From Methanococcus vannielii SB (lineage in GTDB: Archaea > AGJL01 > Methanococci > Methanococcales > Methanococcaceae): a stretch of DNA of 64,000 nt. Shown in pieces: positions 558-1,371 of this stretch. The notes beneath the pieces are model-generated. The model had not been told where the DNA came from, made no database searches, and saw only the letters and a program-made list of their open reading frames with translations. Position numbers and translations under genes: made by a program. Within the stretch, counting starts at the first letter, position 1. Every line of letters begins with the position of its first letter. The stretch lies in NCBI RefSeq assembly GCF_000017165.1, contig NC_009634.1, forward strand, positions 372,001 to 436,000, given 5' to 3'.

Positions 558-562
558 AATTT

Positions 563-629
563 AGGCAAATGATGATGTTATCCCCGGCTGAGATTTGTGA
601 TGAGCCATTATTATGATCTGCTGATGCCT
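563..629 (+). ncRNA. Box C/D guide RNA (sRNA)
   Basis: All four boxes are readable in order: C ATGATGA at 569-575, D' CTGA at 588-591, C' GTGATGA at 597-603, D CTGA at 621-624. The ends form a perfect 5-bp terminal stem, AGGCA (563-567) with TGCCT (625-629). The 12-nt D' guide (576-587) is the exact complement of CCGGGGAUAACA, the 23S rRNA sequence that includes the peptidyl-transferase adenosines (recalled, not searched). By the D+5 rule it would direct 2'-O-methylation at the position equal to E. coli G2446. The 17-nt D guide (604-620) has no target I recognise. A T-rich stretch from 631 could end the transcript. Confidence 0.85.
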
Positions 630-670
630 ATTTTTTATTAAAAATTTTTATTTTTATGTTTTCTATTTTT

Positions 671-871
671 TTATTCGTCTTCATCAAAAATAAAAAGCTC
701 ATCTATTGTCGAATTTAGAGTTTTTGCAATTAAATACGCAAGTTTAAGTGAAGGGTTATATTTTCCTTTTTCAAGAAAATTTATCGTTTCTCGTCTTACA
801 CCAACCTTTTTTCCCAATTCCTCCTGTGTAATATTGTATTTTGCCCTAAATTCTTTTATTCTTGTTTTCAT
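671..871 (-). CDS. XRE-family (Cro/CI-type) transcriptional regulator
   Basis: A 66-residue protein that is essentially one helix-turn-helix domain, with [21 protein letters not shown] at about residues 14-34 as the DNA-binding element. This small single-domain type is common in archaea and bacteria, and usually sits beside a membrane protein of the DUF2178 kind. Here its ATG overlaps the stop of the upstream membrane-protein gene by four bases (ATGA), so the two are co-translated. It may autoregulate through the palindrome at 1372-1388 upstream of the operon (inference). Confidence 0.85.
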
Positions 872-1254
872 TCAATATCGCCCATTTTTTTAAAGTAAGT
901 TTGAAAAAGTAGCGCACTAATAATCATTACAAAATAAATCAGTCCAATTACTTGTTGAATAGTTATTTCAAGCCATTTGAAGTAATCTATCCAAAATATC
1001 AGGGTTATTATTAAAAATGTTGTAACCCATGAATAGGCAAGTCCCGCATTTGCAGTTTTTCGTATTCTTTCATCTTTTGAAGGAATTTCGCGATATTTTA
1101 TGTGGTAATACAAATTATATACTACCAAAATAGCTCCCAAATTTATAAGAACTATTGTTATCAGTTTATCAATTTCAAACATGTATTCGAGAAATATTCC
1201 AAAAAGCATTGTTAAAAATCCCAAAATCAACCTAGTTTTATATTTACTTTCCAT
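868..1254 (-). CDS. DUF2178-like four-helix membrane protein
   Basis: About 128 residues from the ATG at 1254, which has the ribosome site TTAGGTGA; the GTG three codons upstream lies inside that site. Four hydrophobic segments are visible (about residues 8-22, 26-45, 70-88 and 98-118) with the short charged loop [17 protein letters not shown] between helices 2 and 3. That loop is typical of small DUF2178-type proteins paired with an XRE regulator. The function of the pair is not established. The last codons overlap the regulator's start. Confidence 0.7.
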
Positions 1255-1371
1255 AAATATCACCTAAAGTTCAGATTTTTTAAAACGATTATTTTGAAGC
1301 CTTTTTTAAATGTTTAAATATTTATTTTATCAGAGTATCTGTTAATTAGTTTAAACATTATATTAATTATT

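Follow-up and report, generated by a model that had tools for sequence, protein, structure and literature searches.

Most archaeal box C/D RNA genes overlap or closely trail open reading frames (ORFs), and their RNAs are processed out of longer transcripts (PMC7994747), and in Methanococcus maripaludis C5 seven C/D box sRNAs have been detected by RNA-seq (Dennis et al., 2015, PMC4644070). On the eukaryotic side, snR38/snoR38 (RF00213), the guide for Gm2815 in yeast, Gm4362/4392 in humans and Gm2805/2816 in Arabidopsis, is counted among the deeply conserved snoRNAs (Hoeppner and Poole, 2012, PMC3511168). That study names archaeal counterparts for other snoRNAs, namely sR12/snR70 and a few more, finds no firm instance of shared ancestry and does not name snR38 among them; in PMC11542601, the archaeal column (P. 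abyssi) is empty for the snR38 site. Here we describe a locus in a 64-kb stretch of the Methanococcus vannielii SB genome (64,000 nucleotides, hereafter the window) that very probably guides methylation of one nucleotide in the catalytic core of the ribosome. We hold it with high confidence to be the gene of a dual-guide archaeal C/D sRNA of approximately 70 nt, whose D' guide would direct 2'-O-methylation of G2510 of the organism's own 23S rRNA (E. coli G2446).

The element occupies window positions 562-630 on the + strand and reads TAGGCA-A-ATGATGA-TGTTATCCCCGG-CTGA-GATTT-GTGATGA-GCCATTATTATGATCTG-CTGA-TGCCTA, followed by six T. It is composed of box C (ATGATGA, 569-575), the 12-nt D' guide (576-587), box D' (CTGA, 588-591), a 5-nt spacer, box C' (GTGATGA, 597-603), a 17-nt second guide region (604-620) and box D (CTGA, 621-624), and is closed by six base pairs between TAGGCA (562-567) and TGCCTA (625-630). 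As is characteristic of archaeal C/D sRNAs, boxes C and D conform to RUGAUGA and CUGA and are both closed off by the terminal stem, and the internal boxes are near consensus. An earlier note on this DNA had reported all boxes and a perfect terminal stem; each of the four boxes is indeed found, and so is the stem, but the limits given there, 563-629, leave out one base pair, as the stem is one base longer on each side. The T-rich tract that adjoins the stem (631-636) is likely to mark the end of the transcript, and runs of at least four T are found 3' of the element in most orthologues, though not in all. The boxes, the symmetrical four-box layout, the 12-nt guide, the short stem and the position behind an ORF are shared with archaeal C/D sRNAs such as Pyrococcus snoPyro_CD (RF00095), whereas the guide sequences differ. 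Judged by its sequence, the element is truly a gene for an archaeal box C/D guide RNA, of a known, ordinary kind, whether as a new or an already listed member of that class. The M. maripaludis C5 sRNAs belong to the same genus and the same class, and orthologues of the element occur in the sister species G001-G003, so an orthologue is probably among those seven; the sRNA list stands in the supplement of that paper (PMC4644070), and the G2446 site is absent from its main text.

When both strands of the window were searched for the four-box C/D layout, the element was the sole match, and no C/D-like element arose in 200 dinucleotide-preserving shuffles of the window. At Rfam gathering thresholds, a tRNA was the only match in the window and no family reached its cut-off at the element. 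Under permissive settings, the best matches on the element's strand were mostly C/D snoRNAs, with snoR38 and snoPyro_CD leading. The highest-scoring family was snoR38, whose 31.7 bits fall short of the cut-off (45) and, by Rfam's rule, leave the element outside the family; in the ranking by E-value, snoPyro_CD and sR1, which are shorter archaeal models, come first. In this covariance check, of the kind that the earlier note had proposed, snoPyro_CD is among the leading matches but, at 29.1 against 45 bits, stays below its cut-off. When the snoR38 model was run across the organism's own genome, the element was found at E = 0.002 and the next-best place at E = 4.5. Three CTGA sites elsewhere in the window (42668, 43184 and 57630) have rRNA complements; they lack a C/D layout, and we took them as coincidence.

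Conservation was assessed with a pattern made of the end of box C, the guide core and box D' in 36 genomes, all marked as Methanococcales. The pattern is present in 34 of them, including all 27 of good quality, and a reversed control pattern gave zero matches in the same 36 genomes. All 34 orthologues retain the full C-D'-C'-D layout with variable spacers, and boxes C and D are identical throughout. Every orthologue has Watson-Crick pairs at the inner four positions of the stem (pairs 1-4), two of these with compensatory changes (C-G to T-A once, G-C to A-T three times), and pair 5 occurs as several pair types. Such compensatory changes, as a pattern of substitution, are the signature of a selected RNA. 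The D' guide alone of the two is constant throughout the order; the second varies between lineages. In the genomes of a second family (f2), which we take to be Methanocaldococcaceae, an extra T in the D' guide leaves about nine contiguous pairs, with the same G still in register. A Methanothermococcus single-cell genome (G018) carries the RNA twice, on two different contigs (C32:30643 and C41:3716; L053 and L045) and with identical flanks, and these two copies are probably an assembly duplicate.

Archaeal C/D sRNAs carry, directly 5' of box D or D', a guide of 10-12 nt complementary to rRNA or tRNA, and the D' guide of the element is complementary to CCGGGGAUAACA in 23S rRNA at every one of its 12 positions. 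In the genome, searched as one contig of 1,720,048 bases, CCGGGGATAACA occurs five times, once in the 23S gene of each of the four rRNA operons and once, on the opposite strand, in the element itself; the exact 12-nt 23S complement claimed by the earlier note is thus present in all four operons and elsewhere only in the element. When the D' guide was shuffled, 11 of 20,000 versions gave a 12/12 match to the rRNAs or the 30 tested tRNAs. The 23S sequence GCUACCCCGGGGAUAACAG is identical in the six relatives examined. In the 23S copy used for numbering (L026:1769-4737), the complement starts at 2506 and the fifth paired nucleotide, which the N+5 rule predicts to be methylated, is G2510. Alignment to rrlA of E. 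coli MG1655 places this G at 2447; the A-loop U2552 reads 2553 in the same gene, which is the same one-base offset, and therefore the standard number of the predicted G is G2446, as the earlier note had predicted. The genome also encodes fibrillarin (match at 3e-97). Order-wide conservation, compensatory stem changes, the exact 23S target and the genomic fibrillarin all support the box C/D identity, and the predicted methylation at G2446, first proposed from the letters of the window.

We propose that the RNA is cut out of, or terminates, the transcript of the ORF directly upstream, and that its C/D and C'/D' kink-turns would be bound by L7Ae, after which Nop5 and fibrillarin would join. At the 5' foot of helix 89, within the peptidyl-transferase centre, 12 nt of 23S rRNA would then base-pair with the D' guide, and fibrillarin would methylate G2510, the nucleotide opposite the fifth guide position, at its 2'-OH. 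For the D guide, a second site that is specific to the lineage is probable, here U1358 of 16S rRNA, although with much less certainty.

The upstream ORF (36-557, + strand) encodes 173 amino acids and has no Pfam or NCBIfam family above cut-off, only a faint Roadblock/LC7-like match. Its stop codon lies at 555-557; the RNA does sit directly behind the ORF, as had been noted, but the distance counted from 563 is five bases rather than six. By eye, there is no TATA-like box 20-35 bases upstream of the element, in agreement with the remark that an own promoter is not obvious; a sigma-70 promoter scan was set aside as inapplicable to archaea. Archaeal C/D genes being mostly situated behind or across ORFs, we regard this position as usual rather than problematic. 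It is also what one would expect if the element acted in cis, as a kink-turn within the 3' UTR of the preceding gene's mRNA, serving regulation by L7Ae with no separate guide RNA, and regulation of this kind through k-turns has been proposed for archaea (PMC5539422). In line with such a role, a homologue of the upstream ORF directly precedes the RNA in 16 of the 21 RNA-bearing genomes of Methanococcaceae, the same-genus relatives G001-G003 among them, and the end of the protein match often lies 15-18 nt from box C. However, no homologue was found before the RNA in G004-G006, in G020-G021 or in any of the 13 RNA-bearing f2 genomes, and conservation extends to the guide, beyond what a k-turn alone would call for. 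We therefore give the cis-regulatory reading hardly any credence and retain that of a guide RNA. In G004-G006 and several f2 genomes, a TATA-like box was seen by eye about 26-30 nt upstream. Further upstream in G001-G003 there is a second, shorter stretch similar to the 173-aa ORF, which suggests a tandem duplicate. On the other side of the element, a convergent pair of genes on the - strand (window 671-1263) encodes a helix-turn-helix protein of 66 aa together with a protein of 131 aa in which hydrophobic stretches abound; such pairing of a regulator with a membrane protein is common.

For the second guide, the earlier note had recognised no target, and here a tentative candidate can be put forward. 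Of all rRNAs and tRNAs tested, the best match is offered by 16S 1291-1302, with 11 of 12 pairs and a U-U mismatch at position 4, which predicts methylation of 16S U1295 (E. coli U1358) in helix 43; tRNA anticodon loops gave no good match. We consider it an even call whether U1358 is the target of the D guide in this species, and an orphan guide with a coincidental 16S match, a reading restricted to the second guide and in no conflict with our overall explanation, carries equal weight. The mismatch adjoins the target nucleotide, the guide region spans 17 nt rather than 12, two genomes with the same 16S site (G008 and G019) lack the D guide, and orphan guides are common (PMC7994747). Set against this, the 11 pairs are in exact register with box D and were equalled by 95 of 20,000 shuffled guides, and the last ten bases of the guide, TTATGATCTG, are constant in the four species G000-G003 while the preceding bases vary. 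The 16S site is identical in G001-G003 and altered in the f2 and g4 genomes examined, and both of these lineages lack the D guide, which also argues against coincidence.

In the f2 genomes G022-G035 (L144-L156), the orthologous RNA has TAGCAAGCCG followed by G, A or T as its second guide, with a predicted target at 23S C2491, so that a single RNA would mark both sides of helix 89 (2446 and 2491). An RNA that reaches both sides in this way, and that forms a duplex as long as 12 bp at the foot of the helix, might act mainly as a chaperone of rRNA folding, with methylation minor or absent, and archaeal dual guides have been proposed to join stretches of rRNA and to aid subunit assembly (PMC7994747). 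Nevertheless, every element that methylation requires is intact and conserved, as is the spacing between boxes and guides, and the encoded fibrillarin would be at hand to use them; we thus regard a predominant chaperone role as highly improbable and favour guided methylation.

The D' guide also links the element to eukaryotic snR38. In the snoR38 alignment, GUUAUCCC stands directly before box D' in both RNAs and in the same register. Yeast Gm2815, human Gm4362 and Dictyostelium Gm3148 each lie 106 nt before the A-loop uridine (Um2921, Um4468 and Um3254, respectively; PMC8817022), and in the genomes measured the predicted G is likewise 106 nt from the equivalent of U2552. From this equal spacing it follows that the target nucleotide is the same, and the predicted archaeal site is the one that snR38-type guides methylate in yeast, plants and humans. 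Guide core, register and target nucleotide are therefore shared with snR38/snoR38, while the eukaryotic RNA is longer both from C to D' and from D' to C'. This archaeal correspondence looks unreported in the accessible literature, supplements and subscription journals aside.

A guide sequence is dictated by its conserved target, and thus likeness of the guides alone does not prove common ancestry. Outside the Methanococcales, the guide pattern, which is strict and would miss variants, matched 1 of 227 genomes in the phylum of Hodarchaeota and 6 of 398 and 2 of 392 genomes in two other archaeal phyla, some of these matches being without the other boxes. A few of the matches look complete as C/D RNAs, namely those of L142/L180 (Hodarchaeota), L111 (Woesearchaeota), L097 (Nanoarchaeota) and L182, the last with a 9-bp stem. 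L142 (2429-2450), the sole match among the 227, combines the same guide with a C'-like box, a D box and a 5-bp stem, and is a candidate counterpart on the lineage nearest to eukaryotes. In a Marsarchaeota contig, L114 (6662-6683, - strand), the same guide lies between boxes C and D, which are directly enclosed by a stem of 6 bp, and the whole resembles a C/D hairpin reduced to a single guide. We did not count L128, L133, L183, L184 and L186-L188 from other archaeal phyla, for want of a convincing D box with a stem; matches in Thermococcus resemble a gene junction and have no C' or D boxes, and bacterial matches were taken as chance. On balance, we prefer the view that the guide arose independently or was gained and lost repeatedly, convergence being likelier than common descent with snR38. 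It appears unlikely to us that the element and snR38 derive from one pre-eukaryotic guide; on that reading, G2446 methylation would be ancestral to archaea and eukaryotes and retained in Methanococcales, whereas most other archaea would have lost it or handed it over to different guides.

If the methylation is real, G2446 would join the short list of C/D-guided ribose methylations common to archaea and eukaryotes, and a mesophile from a genus with very few such RNAs would have retained a guide-directed mark at the catalytic core of the ribosome, which would suggest that the site matters for function beyond heat stability. Further interest comes from the site being exactly that of snR38 and from the guide being retained almost universally in Methanococcales. 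Moreover, the genetics of Methanococcus are good, and the role of a widely shared modification would thereby become directly approachable by deletion.
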